A DNA stretch of 64,000 nucleotides from positions 2,282,501-2,346,500 of the forward strand of contig NZ_CP086063.1 of assembly GCF_020783315.1 (NCBI RefSeq), read 5' to 3'. Under the pieces are notes generated by a model. It saw nothing but the letters and a program-made list of their open reading frames with translations. It was not told where the DNA came from and did no database searches. The position numbers and the translations under genes are program-made. Source of the DNA: Ferruginibacter lapsinanis (GTDB lineage: Bacteria > Bacteroidota > Bacteroidia > Chitinophagales > Chitinophagaceae). Below, piece by piece: positions 24,075 to 62,451 of this stretch (positions within the stretch are counted from its first letter, which is position 1; each line of letters starts with the position of its first letter).

Positions 24075-24134
24075 TTTTTAGTTCATGGTGTTTTTTAGGG
24101 TTAACTACCAGATCACACCATGAACTAAAAGCTA
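24072..24134. terminator. Near-perfect 20-bp inverted repeat spanning two convergent stop codons
   Basis: TAGTTTTTAGTTCATGGTGT (24072-24091) is matched by ACACCATGAACTAAAAGCTA (24115-24134), 19 of 20 positions complementary, around a 23-nt loop. The outer TAG of each arm is the stop codon of its gene (kinase on plus, response regulator on minus). It can act as a bidirectional terminator and belongs to the word-repeat class described in the findings. Confidence 0.8.
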
Positions 24135-24782
24135 ATCTATCAATTGATGTTTCATCGCATAAAACACTAAGCCTACGGAGTTTTTTACACCGAATCTTTC
24201 CATTAATCTGTCTTTTATTGCTTCAACTGTCCTGGCACTTATATTCATTTTCTGAGCAATCTCAGTTGCTGTAAATTCCATACATACCAGGGTAATTACC
24301 TCTTTTTCTTTTTCACTGATCACCACTTCTGAACTGAGATTAGCATTGAATTTTTGTTTGCTGTAATTCTTCTTTACCAACACCCTGTTCACAAACGAGC
24401 TTAGATAATAGCCCGTGCGTTTAACATCCATGATAGCTTTTTTTATCTCTGCAGAGTCTGTATTTTTTAATAAATATCCTGCTGCACCACAATCCATTAA
24501 GTGCCCGATGAAATGTTCATCTTCATACATAGTAAGTATCAGTACTCTTATGTGGGGATGTGTTTTGGCCAGGCTTTTGGTAACTTCAATACCGTCTTTT
24601 ACAGGCATTTTTAAATCACATAAAACAATGTCGGGATCGGCTTCGGTTATTTTCTCTAAAAGCTCATTGCCATTTTCGGCTTCCATTACAAATTGGATAT
24701 TGGTATAGGAACGCATAGAAAGTATTACACCCTTCCTGAACAGTTTGTGATCGTCTGCTATTGCTACTTTTATTGTTTCCAT
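24132..24782 (-). CDS. NarL/LuxR-type response regulator
   Basis: A 216-residue two-domain regulator. The receiver domain (about 4-120) has acidic pair D10/D11, phospho-acceptor D56 in VLCDLKMP, and a conserved Lys in YLLKNT. The C-terminal LuxR/GerE helix-turn-helix (about 150-215) includes SEKEKEVITLVCMEFTATEIA and ISARTVEAIKDRL. It lies 76 bp downstream of the histidine kinase gene on the same strand and is almost certainly its partner. Target genes are unknown. Confidence 0.93.
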   Translation of the reverse strand: METIKVAIADDHKLFRKGVILSMRSYTNIQFVMEAENGNELLEKITEADPDIVLCDLKMPVKDGIEVTKSLAKTHPHIRVLILTMYEDEHFIGHLMDCGAAGYLLKNTDSAEIKKAIMDVKRTGYYLSSFVNRVLVKKNYSKQKFNANLSSEVVISEKEKEVITLVCMEFTATEIAQKMNISARTVEAIKDRLMERFGVKNSVGLVFYAMKHQLID

Positions 24783-24858: not shown

Positions 24859-25686
24859 TTATAAGGTAGACTCCTTAGGAATTTCCAAAGTTACTTTATA
24901 GTATGTATGGCTTGGGTCTATTTCGAAAAATATCCGGCCATTCAGCACTTTAATTCTGCTGGCAATATTTTTCAATCCAAGTCCCGTAGAGTACTGGTTC
25001 AGTCTGTCGAACTCAGTTTGTACAATACCTTGTCCGTCATGATGTAGTCGGAGATAGGTATGTGTTGCATTGGCATTTTGTGTAAGATGTATAAAGCCGG
25101 CATTACTGTGTTTAATGATATTGTTGATCAATTCCTGCACTATCCTGAAGATCAACAACTCCTGTTCAAGCTTCAACCTGGTTCTGTAGTCATGAAACCG
25201 GCTGCTGGCATTAATAGTACCACTGCCATTAATTTTCTGAAACAGATCACCTATTGCACTTTCTAATCCGAAATTTTTAAGAGTGGGAGGCATCATACTA
25301 TGGCTGATGTTACGGATCAGCTGAATAGCGTCGTCAATAATTTGTTTTGCACTGAAAATAGATTGTAATTGAGATGCAGGATCTAAATTGATAAGATTCT
25401 CATTTAAGTACAATCTGGCGGTAGCTAACAATGGCCCTACATCATCATGCAGATCTGCAGCAATACGATTGCGTTCTTCTTCCTGGAACTTTATTGAGGC
25501 ATTTAACAATATCTGTTGTTTATCATCCTCTAGTTTTTTTAATTGGTTATTGAACCTGATCACCTTTCTTTGATGCAGAATAACAAAAAAGACTATGCCC
25601 AACACCAAGCAAAGCATTACAGCAGTACCTAAAAGCATCACATAATTCACACCGGGAGCATTCGTTGTAGCTTGTAAAAAAATCAT
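24859..25686 (-). CDS. Sensor histidine kinase, HisKA_3 (NarX/DesK) type
   Basis: A 275-residue kinase with a single membrane segment (about 17-37) and almost no extracytoplasmic sensor. A coiled linker leads to the HisKA_3 domain with phospho-acceptor H80 in AADLHDDVGP. The HATPase domain (about 160-270) has the N box QELINNIIKHS, DGQGI (G1 region) and GLGLKNIASRI (G2). With so little sensor, the input may come through the membrane protein encoded 8 bp upstream. It phosphorylates, by inference, the regulator at 24132. Confidence 0.92.
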   Translation of the reverse strand: MIFLQATTNAPGVNYVMLLGTAVMLCLVLGIVFFVILHQRKVIRFNNQLKKLEDDKQQILLNASIKFQEEERNRIAADLHDDVGPLLATARLYLNENLINLDPASQLQSIFSAKQIIDDAIQLIRNISHSMMPPTLKNFGLESAIGDLFQKINGSGTINASSRFHDYRTRLKLEQELLIFRIVQELINNIIKHSNAGFIHLTQNANATHTYLRLHHDGQGIVQTEFDRLNQYSTGLGLKNIASRIKVLNGRIFFEIDPSHTYYKVTLEIPKESTL

Positions 25687-25694
25687 ACTTTGTT

Positions 25695-26333
25695 TCAGTT
25701 TGTCGTTGGGTTAAAATGGTCTAGGTCAAGGTTAACGGTCTGATCGGGTAAATTAGGAATTGGTTTTATGAATTTTGTTAAATACACTCCTATACATAGG
25801 AAGAGGTTTTTTATTATCGTAACACTTCCATATATAATATGATATAACGTACGAAACTCTTTATTTTGTATTGAGTTTTTAGAATATAAGAAAAGAAAAA
25901 AGTTTCCGGAGAAATAGATAAGGAAGGCAATTGATATCCAAAAGATAGGTAATTGATAAATCGGAATGCTTAAATCAATGTTCATTTTTTCGTAAAACAG
26001 GTATATGATAACGAAAATAAAGATGATACATTCTATTACCTGCGGGTAAAAACTGAAAGAAAGCTTATTATTTGCTGGCAGTATATAATCGTAAATGCTA
26101 AATAAAAAGAAGGGAATTATAGATAGTAGCAACAACCTGCCAATCTTTTTCGATTTGATGTTAAGCTTAAAAAACAGGCAAATAGCACTGTATTCTATCA
26201 ATATAAAGACCCTAAATAATGTTACATATAAGAGGAAAGAATCTATGTAAAGTAGTGCTGTTAAGCATAAAACCAAGAAAAGCGCCAGGGCACTTGCATA
26301 CAAAAAAAATACCCTCATATCCTTTGCTCTCAA
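25695..26333 (-). CDS. Multi-pass membrane protein upstream of the kinase, possible sensor
   Basis: A hydrophobic protein of at least 212 residues with six membrane segments, no known catalytic motif and a short polar tail (VNLDLDHFNPTTN). The coordinates use a TTG start; an ATG lies at 26318. However, the frame stays open upstream to 26447 and encodes a convincing first membrane helix (LENITYVSEVSPLIICILLY) with no ATG, GTG or TTG; a start at ATT (26424-26426) would give about 243 residues and seven segments. Its position 8 bp before a sensor-poor kinase suggests it senses or tethers. Similar hypothetical seven-helix proteins occur beside such kinases in Bacteroidota. Confidence 0.7.
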   Translation of the reverse strand: MRAKDMRVFFLYASALALFLVLCLTALLYIDSFLLYVTLFRVFILIEYSAICLFFKLNIKSKKIGRLLLLSIIPFFLFSIYDYILPANNKLSFSFYPQVIECIIFIFVIIYLFYEKMNIDLSIPIYQLPIFWISIAFLIYFSGNFFLFLYSKNSIQNKEFRTLYHIIYGSVTIIKNLFLCIGVYLTKFIKPIPNLPDQTVNLDLDHFNPTTN

Positions 26334-26447
26334 CTTATTATAAAGTAAGATACAAATGATAAGAGGGCTGACCTCAGAAACGTAAGTAATATTTTCAAGT
26401 AGTTTAAGGATAATAAGTTGTTTAATGTAAAAATAAACAACAGTTCC

Positions 26448-27229
26448 TCAAATACAAAAAATATTAATTAGTCGTTTGCTAAGTAAGATACTTCAACTAG
26501 TTCTTTAGCTAGACCGTGTCCCATAGTTAATAGTTTTTTTTTGGTTTAGGAAGAGTTTCAGATGTAAACTTCCCCCGAAACGGCAACCTGGGCAAAGGGT
26601 GAATTTTAATTTTCAACCCTACAAATACGGTAAAATTCACTGTTAGTCGTACTTTTAGGAAATTTTACTCGTAAAAGCCCTAGCATTATTGAGGTAAAAA
26701 TACAACAAAAAATAGTAATTTTACTATTCAGTTTGGAGTTTTTTACTTAGTAAATATACGATAAGTTAATAATTTGTGTACATCTCTGAGGGTAAATAAT
26801 TGGAAGCGAAGGCTTTTTTGGTCAGCTAAATTACATTTTTTTTAAAGTTAGTGGTGCTGAATAGAAGATAAAAGACCGGTTTTATGAGCAATTTGTTTAT
26901 CTGAAGCAGCCCCTTTCTTTATTAAATAAACTTCATATTGTATTTATTATCAATAATTTGTGGTTATTAATAGATAGGTTTTTAATCTGCATTTGTATTC
27001 CAAAGGTAAAAATTACAATGAATCATTAGTATTGTACTATAGCCTGCATTCAAAATTTTACTGTTTCACATCAGCATAGTAAAAATACGATAGTGTTTTT
27101 ACTATGCTGGCGCCTGGCAATTCTTTTATCAAAATTGCAGGTCCGGTAAATGTGAACAAAAGTCTTATTCAAATAGAAATAAGCTTATTTTTAATCATAG
27201 TTTTATCTCCAAGAGCAATATAAAAATCG
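26448..27229. other. Palindrome-rich intergenic region between divergent signalling genes
   Basis: About 780 bp with no supportable gene on either strand. It holds several AT-rich dyads that share the core TTTACT/AGTAAA: TTTTACtcGTAAAA (26663-26676), AATAGTAAttTTACTATT (26711-26728), TTTACTtAGTAAA (26742-26754), and CAGCATAGTAAAAA with its exact inverse (27072-27085 and 27096-27109). A different dyad, GTGAATTTTA/TAAAATTCAC, is at 26599-26640. These probably are operators or RNA structures of the flanking two-component genes. Confidence 0.6.
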
Positions 27230-27237
27230 TATTTTTG
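27230..27237 (+). promoter_or_regulatory. Putative -7 element of the first orphan regulator
   Basis: TATTTTTG matches TAnnTTTG, 27 bp before the ATG at 27265. An apparent TTG start at 27235 would fall inside this element, so the ATG is preferred. Confidence 0.55.
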
Positions 27238-27264
27238 AGTATAAACCCAAAACCTATAAATTCA

Positions 27265-27930
27265 ATGTCAACCGAACAATTAATTAAAATTGCAATTGCC
27301 GACGATCACAAAATTTTCAGAGATGGAATAAAAATGGCCCTTTCCGGTAAAAATGACCTCAAAATGCTCTGGGAAGCTGAAGACGGAAAGGATATGATGC
27401 ACAAAATTGAAATTAAAAAACCTGATGTGTTATTAATGGATATCAGGATGCCGGAAATTGACGGGATCAATGCGATCGAATTAATTCGCAAGGAATATGA
27501 AAATCTTAAGATAATTGTACTTACCATGTATGATGATCAGCAAATGATCAGTAAAATGATGGAAATGGGAGCCAATGCCTACCTCACCAAAACTACAGAC
27601 CCCGAAGAGATCTATGAAGCGATCCTAACCTGTATGAATGACGATTTCTACTTCAACGAACTGGTGAATAAGGCGATTATGGGGAAACTACTGCAGAAAA
27701 AGAGTGTGCGTCAACACTATGGAACCACACAAGCGATCAATTTCAATGAAAAAGAAATAAAAATCCTTCAACTGCTGGCTCAGGATAAAACTACTGAAGA
27801 GATCTCTAAAATCATTTTTTTAAGTCCACGTACAATTGAAACCATAAGACAAACCATGAAAAACAAGGTAAATGCAAAGACCATCGGAGGTTTGATCATG
27901 TATGGAATGCGTAATAAACTTATTGAATAA
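27265..27930 (+). CDS. Orphan NarL/LuxR-type response regulator 1
   Basis: A 221-residue regulator starting MSTEQLIKIAIADDHKIF. Receiver: acidic pair D13/D14, phospho-acceptor D59 in LLMDIRMP, Thr in VLTMYDDQ, Lys in YLTKTTDP. The linker (about 125-155) is followed by a GerE helix-turn-helix with NEKEIKILQLLAQDKTTEEIS and LSPRTIETIRQTM. No kinase gene is next to it on the same strand; the kinase at 24859 is divergent. It is a close paralogue of the next gene, 170 bp downstream, indicating tandem duplication. Confidence 0.92.
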   Translation: MSTEQLIKIAIADDHKIFRDGIKMALSGKNDLKMLWEAEDGKDMMHKIEIKKPDVLLMDIRMPEIDGINAIELIRKEYENLKIIVLTMYDDQQMISKMMEMGANAYLTKTTDPEEIYEAILTCMNDDFYFNELVNKAIMGKLLQKKSVRQHYGTTQAINFNEKEIKILQLLAQDKTTEEISKIIFLSPRTIETIRQTMKNKVNAKTIGGLIMYGMRNKLIE

Positions 27931-28057
27931 GGAAGTTTTACAATACTCCTCCAAGTAGAGTTTACACGTTTTTCACCGTTTTAATAGTAGATTTCCCATA
28001 AAAAAGAACAGGTAAATATGCTATTAGTTTCTTCAGAAATTCTTCTGAACTTGCACT

Positions 28058-28075
28058 AGTAAAAGTGATTTTACT
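28058..28075. promoter_or_regulatory. Palindromic operator candidate before orphan regulator 2
   Basis: AGTAAAA, GTGA, TTTTACT: an 18-bp perfect dyad with a 4-bp spacer, centred about 35 bp before the ATG at 28101. The same half-sites recur in the gap upstream of regulator 1. Confidence 0.5.
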
Positions 28076-28100
28076 TTTTAAAACTGTAAAGAATACGATT

Positions 28101-28778
28101 ATGTCAACCAATATAGAACCACTAAGAGTAATCATCGCCGATGACCATGTGTTATACAGAGCAGGAGTTAAGACAGCTTTGAGTGCTAAGAAAGATATTA
28201 AAATTATTGCCGAGGCAGACAATGGAATGCATTTATTGAATCTGCTTAAAAATATAGAAGCAGATGTAATATTGCTGGACATTCAAATGCCTATCATGGA
28301 TGGTATAACCGCTTTGCCTGAGATCAAAAAGAACTGGCCACATATCAAAGTAATTATGCTTACGATGCTGGATGACCATAGTATGATCACCAGGCTGATG
28401 GAACTAGGAGCAAATAGCTACTTAAGCAAAACAAGTGATAGTGAAATAATTTATGAAGCCATTAAAACTGTTTTTGAACAAGAGTATTATTTTAATTCGC
28501 TAACGAATAAAGCCTTGCTTGTAAATCTTAAGCAAAAAAATGTAGCGATGCCACAAAAGATGGCCCACGAAGATGTAAAATTATCCGATAAAGAAATTAC
28601 CATTTTAAAGTTGATGTGTGATGAAAAGAGTACGAAGGAGATTGCGGAGGCTGTAGATCTTAGTCCTCGTACAGTAGAAGCGATGAGAGATAAATTAAAA
28701 GTAAAGACAGGCGCAAAAAATACAGCAGGCTTAATTATGTACGCTGTAAAACATAAATTGATAGGCGAAGAAATGTAA
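28101..28778 (+). CDS. Orphan NarL/LuxR-type response regulator 2
   Basis: A 225-residue regulator, start MSTNIEPLRVIIADDHVLY. Phospho-acceptor D60 in ILLDIQMP, Thr in MLTMLDDH, Lys in YLSKTSD; the C-terminal LuxR-type helix-turn-helix has SDKEITILKLMCDEKSTKEIAE and LSPRTVEAMRDKL. A GTG at 28065 is in frame but lies within the palindrome, so the ATG with the MST start shared by its paralogue is chosen. It may be autoregulated through the dyad at 28058..28075. Confidence 0.92.
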   Translation: MSTNIEPLRVIIADDHVLYRAGVKTALSAKKDIKIIAEADNGMHLLNLLKNIEADVILLDIQMPIMDGITALPEIKKNWPHIKVIMLTMLDDHSMITRLMELGANSYLSKTSDSEIIYEAIKTVFEQEYYFNSLTNKALLVNLKQKNVAMPQKMAHEDVKLSDKEITILKLMCDEKSTKEIAEAVDLSPRTVEAMRDKLKVKTGAKNTAGLIMYAVKHKLIGEEM

Positions 28779-58488: not shown

Positions 58489-60501
58489 TTATCTTATTAA
58501 TACAGTAGTTCCTTTTGAAAATTTCTTTTCTCCCGTTTCGATATTGGTATATTCTAGCGTCCATACGTACGTTCCCGGATCCTGTGGTTTTCCGGAAAAA
58601 GTTCCATCCCATTTATTTGTCCAGTCGGTAGTTGTAAAGAGTAATTGGCCTAAACGGTTAAATACGTTGAATTGCAATTTGGTTGCTTTGTATGCATTTG
58701 TAGGGTAAAGAAAATCATTTAATCCATCACCATTAGGGGTAAACGCAGTTGGAACGGCAATATAACAATTTCCTAATACTTTTATTTTTTGATATGCTGT
58801 ATCAGCGCAGTTGATATTGTTTTTTACAATTAATCTTGCAGTGTAGTCTTTTGGTATGTTAGTATAAGGGTATTGTTGTTTGGGGGGCACCTGTAAACTG
58901 CTTGTATTTGCATTTCCAAAATCCCATGACCAACTGCTTATTTTTCCAATACTTTTATCAGTAAAAGGAACAAGGTCGTCGGGGCAAACCAAAGCACTTG
59001 TCTCAAATGAAGCTTTCAATGTATTATCCAGATCTACCACTGCTGAAGCTGTATCTGAACAAACCCCGTTTGAAACGATCAGTGTTGCATTCTTTTTGCC
59101 AAATGCGTTATATGCAATGGAGGTATCTTTTGAAGTACTTGTAATATTGTTATCGAATTTCCATTGCCAACTGTTTACTTCATTTCTTCCGTCATGAGAA
59201 AAATCAATGATATCCTGTTTGCAATCGAATTTTATAGTAGCTGTAAACACTGCAGATACCGTATCTTTTGCTGAAAATTGAATGGTAGCTCCGGCAGGTG
59301 TAGGCATATCACATTCATTAATGATCGTATTGCCATCACTACCTGTTTTTAACCGGATAGTATAATTCCCCTTAGTTTGTATAGGAGTTGATAATTTAAT
59401 GCTGATAGTATTGGTAAGTCCATTGGTATTGCAAGTTCCTTTTGCACTTGCAATTGTAACAGCAGAAGGGCCTGTTATCATAAAATCACTTCCATCAGAA
59501 GCGATGGAGTTACACTGCATCATTTTTTTAAATACTAACTCCAGTTCATCCGGCGCACAGCCTAATGCCGACAGGCTATCCATAGGAGTTGGTATTAATG
59601 GATATACTGTAACAGGGATTTTTTCACCTACTGGAATGGTTCTGTCACAATTGTCAACAAGTGTATTGCCGTCAGAACCATTTGAAATAGTTATTGTGTA
59701 TCCTTGAGGAGGTAATGGACCATTGAGCACTAATCTTACAGAATCCATATCAAATGCATTATTGCAATTGATTCCTGTAGCAGAAATTACAGAAGCAACA
59801 GCAGGGGTAATGGTAAACTCACTTCCATTGGCAGAAAGACTGTTGCATTTCATTTCCTTGTTAAGTCTGATATCAATAACAGAACCATCACATGGGGCTC
59901 TGGCACTTTCTAAATGTGGCTCAACCGGATCAGTAATATTTGCTGTACCTCCATTAAATGATAATGTATAACCACTTTGTGAATCTCCGGAGAAATGACT
60001 GATCAACAATAAATAATTATGGCCTTGCTGCAATACCGGCATCTTACTGTACAGCGGCCTGTAAGGGTTTCTAGGGCTGCTTCCACATACTATCAGTGAT
60101 TCGGCGGTGGCAGACGTTCCGGTAGTACCTTCTTCACCAGACCAATTACATGCCACTAATAACGATGCATCACTATATACATCTGAAGGATTGCGGCCCG
60201 TTATATCAAATATTTGCCAGTCATAATCATCGGATGTAATGTTTGGCTTTATTTCAAGTCCTAATGTGCCGGTACTAAAACAGGTAAATTTGTACCAGTA
60301 AGGGTTAATGTCTGTAATCAGATCAGCACTGCATGGCCCTGGTATCGGTCGTCCACCACAAACTGGCACACTGCTTTGAATAAAATTGGCAGTACCGCAC
60401 ACAGGGAAGGCTGTTCCGGGATTTTGTCCCAAAGTGGTACATTGAGCAGAACAGAATTTTGTAGCTAAAATGGTAAGCAGTACGATACAATAATACTTCA
60501 T
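58489..60501 (-). CDS. Secreted protein with PKD domains and T9SS type-B sorting domain
   Basis: A 670-residue exported protein; signal peptide 1-19 (TKFCSAQ). The N-terminal domain (about 20-185) is a beta-sandwich seen in many gliding-associated proteins; two Ig/SprB-like repeats (about 195-400; both with CNSLASNGSEF / CNSIASDGSDF words) and two PKD domains (about 410-560) follow. The last 85 residues are the gliding-motility C-terminal (CHU_C, type B) sorting domain: PTAFTPNGDGLNDFLYP and GTYVWTLEY. Surface or secreted role; ligand unknown. Confidence 0.88.
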   Translation of the reverse strand: MKYYCIVLLTILATKFCSAQCTTLGQNPGTAFPVCGTANFIQSSVPVCGGRPIPGPCSADLITDINPYWYKFTCFSTGTLGLEIKPNITSDDYDWQIFDITGRNPSDVYSDASLLVACNWSGEEGTTGTSATAESLIVCGSSPRNPYRPLYSKMPVLQQGHNYLLLISHFSGDSQSGYTLSFNGGTANITDPVEPHLESARAPCDGSVIDIRLNKEMKCNSLSANGSEFTITPAVASVISATGINCNNAFDMDSVRLVLNGPLPPQGYTITISNGSDGNTLVDNCDRTIPVGEKIPVTVYPLIPTPMDSLSALGCAPDELELVFKKMMQCNSIASDGSDFMITGPSAVTIASAKGTCNTNGLTNTISIKLSTPIQTKGNYTIRLKTGSDGNTIINECDMPTPAGATIQFSAKDTVSAVFTATIKFDCKQDIIDFSHDGRNEVNSWQWKFDNNITSTSKDTSIAYNAFGKKNATLIVSNGVCSDTASAVVDLDNTLKASFETSALVCPDDLVPFTDKSIGKISSWSWDFGNANTSSLQVPPKQQYPYTNIPKDYTARLIVKNNINCADTAYQKIKVLGNCYIAVPTAFTPNGDGLNDFLYPTNAYKATKLQFNVFNRLGQLLFTTTDWTNKWDGTFSGKPQDPGTYVWTLEYTNIETGEKKFSKGTTVLIR

Positions 60502-60600
60502 AGATTGTAGAGATGGCGAAATTATACGCTATGATGCTTTGGTTTACTGTTTTGCTGTAAAGTAAACAGATTATTTGTTACTAAAATGACAAATAATATA

Positions 60601-61074
60601 TCAATATTCCGTTTTATCGGGTTTGTTGGCCCATTCTTCAAAAACTTTTAATGCATCATTTCTTCCAAGAGGTATAATAGGTATTTTTCTTTCGTGCATT
60701 TCAGCTTTCATCTCATCATAGATCATGGAGTCATCAAAGCCTATATCTGCAGCATCTTTTCTATTATTGGCAAAGTAAACAACTTTTGGTCTTGCCCAAT
60801 AAATAGCACCCAGGCACATAGGGCAGGGCTCACAGGAAGTATAAATCTCACAATCAGTCAACTGAAAAGAGTTTAGATTTTTACAGGCATCCCTGATGGC
60901 AGTAACTTCTGCATGTGCAGTAGGATCATTGCTACTGGTAACTTTGTTGTTACCTCTACCTACTATCTCATCTCCTTTTACAACAACACAGCCAAAGGGC
61001 CCGCCTTCATTATTTACAACGCCATTGAGTGATAATTTAATGGCTTCCTGCATGAATTTTTCTTCTCTTGTCAT
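60601..61074 (-). CDS. Guanine deaminase-like nucleoside deaminase
   Basis: A 157-residue zinc deaminase. Zinc/catalytic HAEVTAIRDACK and CEPCPMCLGAIYWARP are the CDA signature; NNRKDAADIGFDDSMIYDEM in the C-terminal third is typical of bacterial guanine deaminase (GuaD) rather than tRNA adenosine deaminase. Converts guanine to xanthine in purine salvage, by inference. ATG at 61074 chosen; an upstream in-frame start would add residues with no family match. Confidence 0.88.
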   Translation of the reverse strand: MTREEKFMQEAIKLSLNGVVNNEGGPFGCVVVKGDEIVGRGNNKVTSSNDPTAHAEVTAIRDACKNLNSFQLTDCEIYTSCEPCPMCLGAIYWARPKVVYFANNRKDAADIGFDDSMIYDEMKAEMHERKIPIIPLGRNDALKVFEEWANKPDKTEY

Positions 61075-61167
61075 TATCGTATTTACTTTGTTTAGTAAAT
61101 ATAAATAAAAATCGAGTAAATAAGGGTTGGCAGATAGGCTCAATGATGAGTGGGCTGCCTTTATTTT

Positions 61168-62451
61168 TTAATATCCATCAAATGCGTCGAAAGCTTCAAT
61201 TGTTTTATCCAGATCTTCATAGGTTAAAGCATCATTTAAAAACCAACTTTCGTAAGCAGAAGGAGGGAGGTATATTCCTTTATCCAACATAAAATGAAAT
61301 AGTTTATTAAACAAAGGAATATCTGCTTTTGATGCGCTGTCAAAATCGATAATGTCATGATTGCAGAAATGAACACTTATCATGCTGCCAAACCTGTTGA
61401 TACGGAAATTAACCTTGCGTTTAGTTAATACATTTCTTATGCCGTCTTCTAAATATTTTGTTTTGTCTTCCAGTGATTGGTATATAGCTGGATTGTTCTT
61501 TAATTCTTCCAACATGGTAAAACCTGCTATCATAGCAATCGGATTACCACTTAAAGTTCCTGCCTGATACACATTTCCGAGAGGGGCAATATGTTGCATG
61601 ATCTCTTTTTTGCCACCAAATGCGCCTACCGGCATACCACCCCCGATCACTTTTCCGTAAGTAACTAGATCAGCTTTGATATTCAGCTTTTCCTGTGCAC
61701 CGCCAGGAGCCAGTCTGAAGCCGGTCATTACTTCGTCAAAAATAAAAACAATGTTTTCCTCGTCGCATATTTTTCTAAGTCCTTCTAAAAAACCTGGTTG
61801 TGGTATGATACAGCCCATATTACCTGCAACGGGTTCTATTATTATTGCAGCGACCTGATCTTTATTTTCTGCCACTAATTTTTTAACAGCCTCCAAATTA
61901 TTATAGGGGGCATTCAAGGTGTCATTTGAAACACCGGCAGTGATACCGGGAACAGTTTGAATATTGAATGTAGCTAAACCGCTGCCTGCTTTTACTAAAA
62001 ATGAATCAGCATGTCCATGGTAATTGCCTTCAAATTTAATTATCTTATTCTTGCCTGTGTAACCTCTTGCTAATCTGATAGCACTCATGCAAGCCTCTGT
62101 GCCGCTGCTCACCATTCTGATCATATCAACATTAGGAACCATACTGATGATCATCTCTGCCATTTCTATTTCTAAGGTAGTAGGGGCGCCATAGGAAGTG
62201 GAGTATTCGGCGTATTCCTGTATAGCTTTAACCACAGGCTCGTATGCATGACCTAAGATCATTGGTCCCCATGAAGCAATGTAATCTATATATTGATTGT
62301 CATCTACATCATATAAATAAGCTCCATAAGCTTTTTCTATAAAGAGAGGAGTACCTCCAACGCTTTTAAATGCTCTTACCGGTGAGTTAACTCCTCCGGG
62401 AATGCTTTTCTGCGCTCTTTCGAATAATATTTTACTTCTTGTTGTGTCCAT
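61168..62451 (-). CDS. hemL: Glutamate-1-semialdehyde 2,1-aminomutase
   Basis: A 427-residue class III aminotransferase-fold PLP enzyme that forms 5-aminolevulinate. [19 protein letters not shown] at the start, [23 protein letters not shown] and the PLP lysine in [17 protein letters not shown] are diagnostic. hemB lies upstream on the same strand, separated by a heptamer repeat. Confidence 0.97.

Follow-up and report, generated by a model that had tools for sequence, protein, structure and literature searches.

Operators of the 7-2-7' type, as recognised by NarL, consist of two heptamers with the consensus TACYYMT that are separated by a 2-bp spacer and carry the TAC at the outside left. Response regulators of the NarL type bind inverted repeats as homodimers, as exemplified by the 7-2-7' operators of NarL and NarP in Escherichia coli (excerpts of PMC2718512). 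For DevR/DosR of Mycobacterium tuberculosis and OsdR of Streptomyces a palindrome lies upstream of the regulator's own gene, and the OsdR operator, a G/C-rich 16-nt consensus AGGGCCGATCGGCCCT with a wide regulon, was detected through the comparison of upstream regions (passages of PMC5069765). DevR activates its own operon via upstream sites, according to the title of a study cited in PMC5069765. The locus described here, the gap between two divergent operons of a signalling island in Chitinophagaceae, carries an array of candidate operator sites of the form GTA-N4-TAC that shares with the NarL operators the short inverted repeat of dimer size, with those of DevR/DosR and OsdR the position upstream of the regulator genes, and with that of OsdR the route of detection through upstream regions of relatives. 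It differs from the NarL operators in that the triplet order is reversed, with GTA at the left, TAC at the right, a 4-bp A/T centre, and a phasing of the arrays of about 22 bp; the sites are thus not 7-2-7' operators in the strict sense. Compared to the OsdR operator, the sites are rich in A/T and, as far as 22-bp pairs show, occur in one island only, and the island weight matrix does not agree with the 16-nt G/C-rich consensus of DevR/OsdR. Direct literature searches found no paper on regulators of this group or on the GTA-N4-TAC motif. The operator array appears to be real and ordinary in kind, autoregulatory circuits being common, with a site pattern of its own.

The window, i.e., the whole stretch of 64,000 nucleotides that was analysed, spans positions 2282501-2346500 of a 3.455-Mb single-contig genome. 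It contains on the minus strand trpS and dNK followed by D, HK, and TM, and on the plus strand B and A followed by pabC and a photolyase-like gene (Table 1). The names trpS, dNK, pabC, and photolyase are those we take to apply, a domain test having been done for pabC only (Aminotran_4). D, B, and A each combine a receiver domain with a GerE (LuxR-type) helix-turn-helix domain, all above curated cut-offs. The LHD motif with the phosphorylated His is present in 46/46 HK orthologs examined, and the phospho-Asp is invariant in B (55 sequences), D (48), and A (35). With these residues the island has the complete phosphorelay chemistry, and by its regulator domains, the phospho-Asp, and the partner kinase with its domains and His it is classified as a two-component system of the NarL/FixJ type. 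The gene order of the island is conserved among same-genus genomes. Many relatives contain an additional kinase and a NarL-type regulator, HK2 and C, between B and A (maps L032-L068), and in L060 both are placed between TM and B instead; in the window neither was found between TM and B or between B and A. A pattern search for the phospho-Asp in regulator C gave none among 16 sequences. Judged by eye from the alignment, conservation at the N-terminus of TM appears to extend into 26334-26411 (minus strand), ahead of the first ATG/GTG/TTG codon in the window ORF, and since the relatives lack a conserved ATG in this stretch translation may begin at a rare start codon.

Table 1. Genes of the divergent island and GTA-N4-TAC sites around them (positions in the window; column conservation from 25 aligned sequences where stated).
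Feature	Position	Strand	Remarks
D, NarL-type response regulator	24132..24782	-	Response_reg + GerE
HK, histidine kinase	24859..25686	-	HisKA_3 + HATPase_c
TM, membrane protein gene of divergent operon	25695..26333	-	no Pfam match; true start probably upstream of 26333
Site 1 of TM-side array, GTAAAAATAC	26694..26703		exact; missed by the first-pass annotation; triplet columns 0.96-1.00 (25 aligned)
Site 2, GTAATTTTAC, core of 26711-26728	26715..26724		exact; 21 bp from site 1; six triplet columns 1.00 (25 aligned)
Degenerate site, at the place of the third site in many relatives	26737..26746		one conserved triplet, 26744-26746, columns 0.88-0.96
Exact site, GTAAATATAC	26750..26759		triplet columns 0.68-1.00
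B-side exact site, GTAAAAATAC, left half of 27072-27109	27079..27088		B-side site in 62/81 loci
B-side near-site, GTGTTTTTAC	27093..27102		one change; 14 bp from the site at 27079..27088
B, NarL-type response regulator	27265..27930	+	Response_reg + GerE
Weak near-site before A, GTGATTTTAC	28065..28074		one change; inside 28058-28075
A, NarL-type response regulator	28101..28778	+	Response_reg + GerE

The first-pass annotation had marked five dyads with an AGTAAA/TTTACT core, and all five are present, four of them imperfect or gapped (26663-26676, 26711-26728, 26742-26754, and 28058-28075) and one with perfect 14-bp arms and a 10-nt spacer (27072-27109). The core turned out to be the wrong unit. 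Measured by it, the dyads of the 931-bp TM-B gap are just mildly unusual: the gap contains five dyads with at most one mismatch vs a mean of 0.90, 25 of 2000 dinucleotide shuffles reach five, and among 136 window tiles of 931 bp one has six and another also five. Genome-wide there is no enrichment, with AGTAAA-N0..20-TTTACT occurring 30 times vs 42 for the reversed control pattern and TTTAC-N0..6-GTAAA 141 times vs 135 for the control. The annotation had named equal density elsewhere as the outcome that would speak against its proposal, and the counts of 30 vs 42 together with the two equally rich tiles largely do so for its original wording. These two tiles, at 59986-61381, are devoid of GTA-N4-TAC sites.

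The actual unit was recognised by comparison with relatives, using loci that encode a protein closely related to regulator B; the corresponding records carry the names of Ferruginibacter and other members of the Chitinophagaceae. In the discovery set, comprising the regions upstream of B from 28 relatives and the window (29 in total), AGTAA-N2-TTACT ranked first among all 5-mer dyads, occurring in 20 regions vs 0.06 expected with a top count of eight in 100 shuffles; it sits about 357-405 bp from the start of the TM match in loci with such a match, and a second copy is present in L035 and L051. When all trinucleotide dyads were counted in the same 29 gaps, GTA-N4-TAC occurred 133 times vs 11.2 expected, and GTA/TAC at other gap lengths (1-17 occurrences each) was not enriched. 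The unit is a 10-bp inverted repeat; in the weight matrix it is mostly preceded by A or C and followed by T or G, and its centre is A/T. The TM-B gap of the window contains four exact sites vs a shuffle mean of 0.26, a number reached in none of 2000 shuffles. Of the dyads marked originally, 26711-26728 contains a site in the correct register, 26742-26754 overlaps the site at 26750-26759 out of register, and 27072-27109 consists of two adjacent sites. The dyad before A, 28058-28075, holds a single near-match that is weakly supported by relatives, nine exact sites occurring upstream of A vs 2.9 expected in 29 regions, a weak enrichment. The remaining dyad, 26663-26676, is not conserved (columns 0.28-0.68 in 25 aligned sequences), and for it the annotation's own warning of chance words in A/T-rich DNA holds, whereas for GTA-N4-TAC this concern is refuted. 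What survives of the original proposal is its central idea, an operator shared by NarL-type regulators for controlling their own and each other's genes, which is the best reading and has strong comparative evidence for an operator, although the core, the register, the unconserved dyad, and the weak site before A have to be corrected or discounted.

In 25 aligned leaders the outer triplets of the sites at 26694 and 26715 reach a conservation of 0.96-1.00 with more variable centres, against a background of 18% of non-coding columns at 0.85 or above. The usual arrangement is an array of three to five sites next to the TM-HK-D operon, with a further one or two 100-200 bp before B; a site at this distance from B is found in 62/81 loci, and 48 of these 62 have a second, relaxed B-side site. 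Successive sites in relatives are spaced mostly by 21-24 or 12-14 bp, with further classes of 34-37 and 79-81 bp, the peak being at 22 bp (29 successive pairs), and 74/81 loci contain a pair spaced by 20-24 bp. The degenerate copy at 26737..26746 probably represents a decayed site.

The pattern extends through the family, with the reservation that the counts of the following locus sets are not mutually independent, since the sets overlap and several named loci and numbered genomes are likely the same assemblies. The 80 loci with named records contain 359 GTA-N4-TAC sites vs 8-34 at other gap lengths, with at least one site in 79 and at least three in 72. The sole exception, L120, apparently belongs to the same contig as L060 (genome G033), in which HK2 and C occupy the TM-B interval as a cassette, with five sites between TM and C. 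A family-wide sample of 27 loci, 26 from other genera and one from the same genus, contains 81 sites vs 11.2 expected, with a site in every locus. Among 117 Chitinophagaceae genomes, B was found in 44 (43 full and one partial, the latter accepted by 77% identity) and D in 47, with ortholog cuts placed near an E-value of 1e-95 (B) or 1e-84 (D). D is present in all 44 genomes with B, one of these B copies being the partial one; B is thus found exclusively alongside D, and the possible cases of D without B (G111, G096, and G153) all lie at or near contig ends.

We assign a probability of roughly 0.78 to the reading that the TM-B gap holds an autoregulatory operator array recognised by at least one of the NarL/FixJ-type response regulators encoded in the island. 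Each GTA-N4-TAC site would accommodate a single regulator dimer; upon phosphorylation, the dimers would occupy the array jointly, possibly cooperatively on one helical face, and would thereby set transcription of both divergent operons, and this autoregulatory loop would reset the levels of kinase and regulators. The likely binder is an island regulator. The stretches of B, D, and A that we take to be the recognition helices are alike (SPRTIETIR, SARTVEAIK, and SPRTVEAMR), which makes shared recognition and cross-regulation plausible, if unproven. Our guess is that the array activates rather than represses, because it lies upstream of conserved elements resembling promoters of the leader and of TM. 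A short leader ORF of 18 codons in the window (26468-26524, minus strand) lies between the array and TM, its ATG position being conserved; in 24/25 loci the TM match is preceded by an ATG ORF of 11-20 codons whose start is 166-211 nt away, and the peptide sequences differ widely. Based on the Bacteroidota promoter consensus TTTG/TANNTTTG (excerpt of PMC6847099), a scan for TTG-N18..23-TANNTTTG gave a match ending 91-99 nt before the start of the TM match in 15/25 loci and none in the window itself.

Within the island, the TM|B gap contains 5.9 sites per kb, while other spacings of the triplets stand at 0.38 per kb. Sites are absent from most of the remaining island gaps; small numbers occur in D|HK (5 in 20 gaps), HK2|A (6 in 11), and B|A (7 in 11, four of which are in one 3.3-kb gap). 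The coding sequence of the A regulator contains 16 sites in 30 copies, which counts against the autoregulatory reading, as does the triplet order opposite to that of NarL operators. The exact 22-bp pair has 46 forward matches in 40 genus genomes, 31 of them at the island in 27 genomes and three more in look-alike sequence of G175-G177 that is probably the island as well; the 12 elsewhere equal the reversed control (12). The exact pair is absent from nine of the 40 genomes, including the genome analysed here, in which the spacing is 21. A looser search in the latter gave 22 forward and 16 reverse matches vs 5 and 7 for the control, and the excess of the 20 forward matches outside the island over the control (5) also speaks against the reading; just two matches have all-A/T centres in both sites, and these are the island's. 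Among the loci retrieved, the loose pairs at about 361.75 kb and 2952.3 kb fall within ORFs, that at about 2730.0 kb overlaps the ends of ORFs, and that at about 3387.8 kb is situated between ORFs; a single dyad near 2862.5 kb is within a long ORF. Judged by the 22-bp pairs, the sites lie upstream of the regulator genes and are confined to them, which is the placement of a putative autoregulatory operator.

The same pair counts bear on the alternative that some transcription factor with its gene elsewhere in the genome uses the sites as operators and controls the island from outside. In its favour, the island regulators are candidate binders only, but we consider it unlikely: with off-island pairs at control level (12 vs 12 in 40 genomes), such a factor would have the island as its only paired target, and it is simpler to assume binding by the neighbouring regulators. 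Far less probable is that the dyads, chiefly 27072-27109, form an RNA structure such as a leader hairpin or terminator. The RNA of 27060-27120 indeed folds with a z of -6.6, a strong hairpin that arises because two adjacent sites happen to mirror each other here; however, z falls below -3 in just 5/62 loci with a B-side site (median -0.85), conservation resides in the outer triplets with the centres free, and no Rfam family was matched beyond sub-threshold hits of the chance type. An RNA hairpin or known RNA family was rejected on the folding survey and Rfam.

Chance words of A/T-rich DNA would account for the AGTAAA/TTTACT dyads as far as their genome-wide counts and the two equally rich tiles go, but not for a GTA-N4-TAC unit whose position and spacing are conserved among relatives, and this explanation is slightly less credible still. 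At the very bottom we place an origin of replication, or else a mobile or dispersed repeat, suggested by the long A/T-rich gap and by TGTGGATAA-like words near the gap in some relatives. Within the reach of these tests an origin is ruled out for this genome, as the GC-skew does not flip, DnaA-box words in the window show no excess (26 vs 22.6 expected), and DnaA is encoded at a distance of 1.8 Mb in record coordinates; a repeat is ruled out for the long dyad 27072-27109, which is single-copy in the genome.

The array provides a candidate binding-site code that can be tested, for a NarL-type signalling island that occurs in about four of ten sampled family genomes (B 44/117, D 47/117), and a word cluster that looks like chance resolves into a precise candidate operator through comparison of relatives. 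A wider and tentative idea, which may well not hold, is that of a closed regulatory island in Chitinophagaceae, in which three or four NarL-type paralogs whose recognition helices resemble each other (D, B, A, and often C) would share a private code of 22-bp-phased GTA-N4-TAC arrays found only in their own divergent gap, and the array would integrate several phosphorylation inputs into one self-resetting switch.

The small genome G111 (L189, 140-639) seems to be without TM and B and has HK close to A, loss of B being uncertain because of contig ends. It has kept one GTA-N4-TAC site 90 bp before A, which we count against the autoregulatory reading. Upstream of A in relatives there is furthermore a different conserved inverted repeat, CCC-N12/13-GGG, with 13 and 14 occurrences vs 0.9 expected (29 regions); it has decayed in the window (27931-28100) and may be the operator of another regulator.
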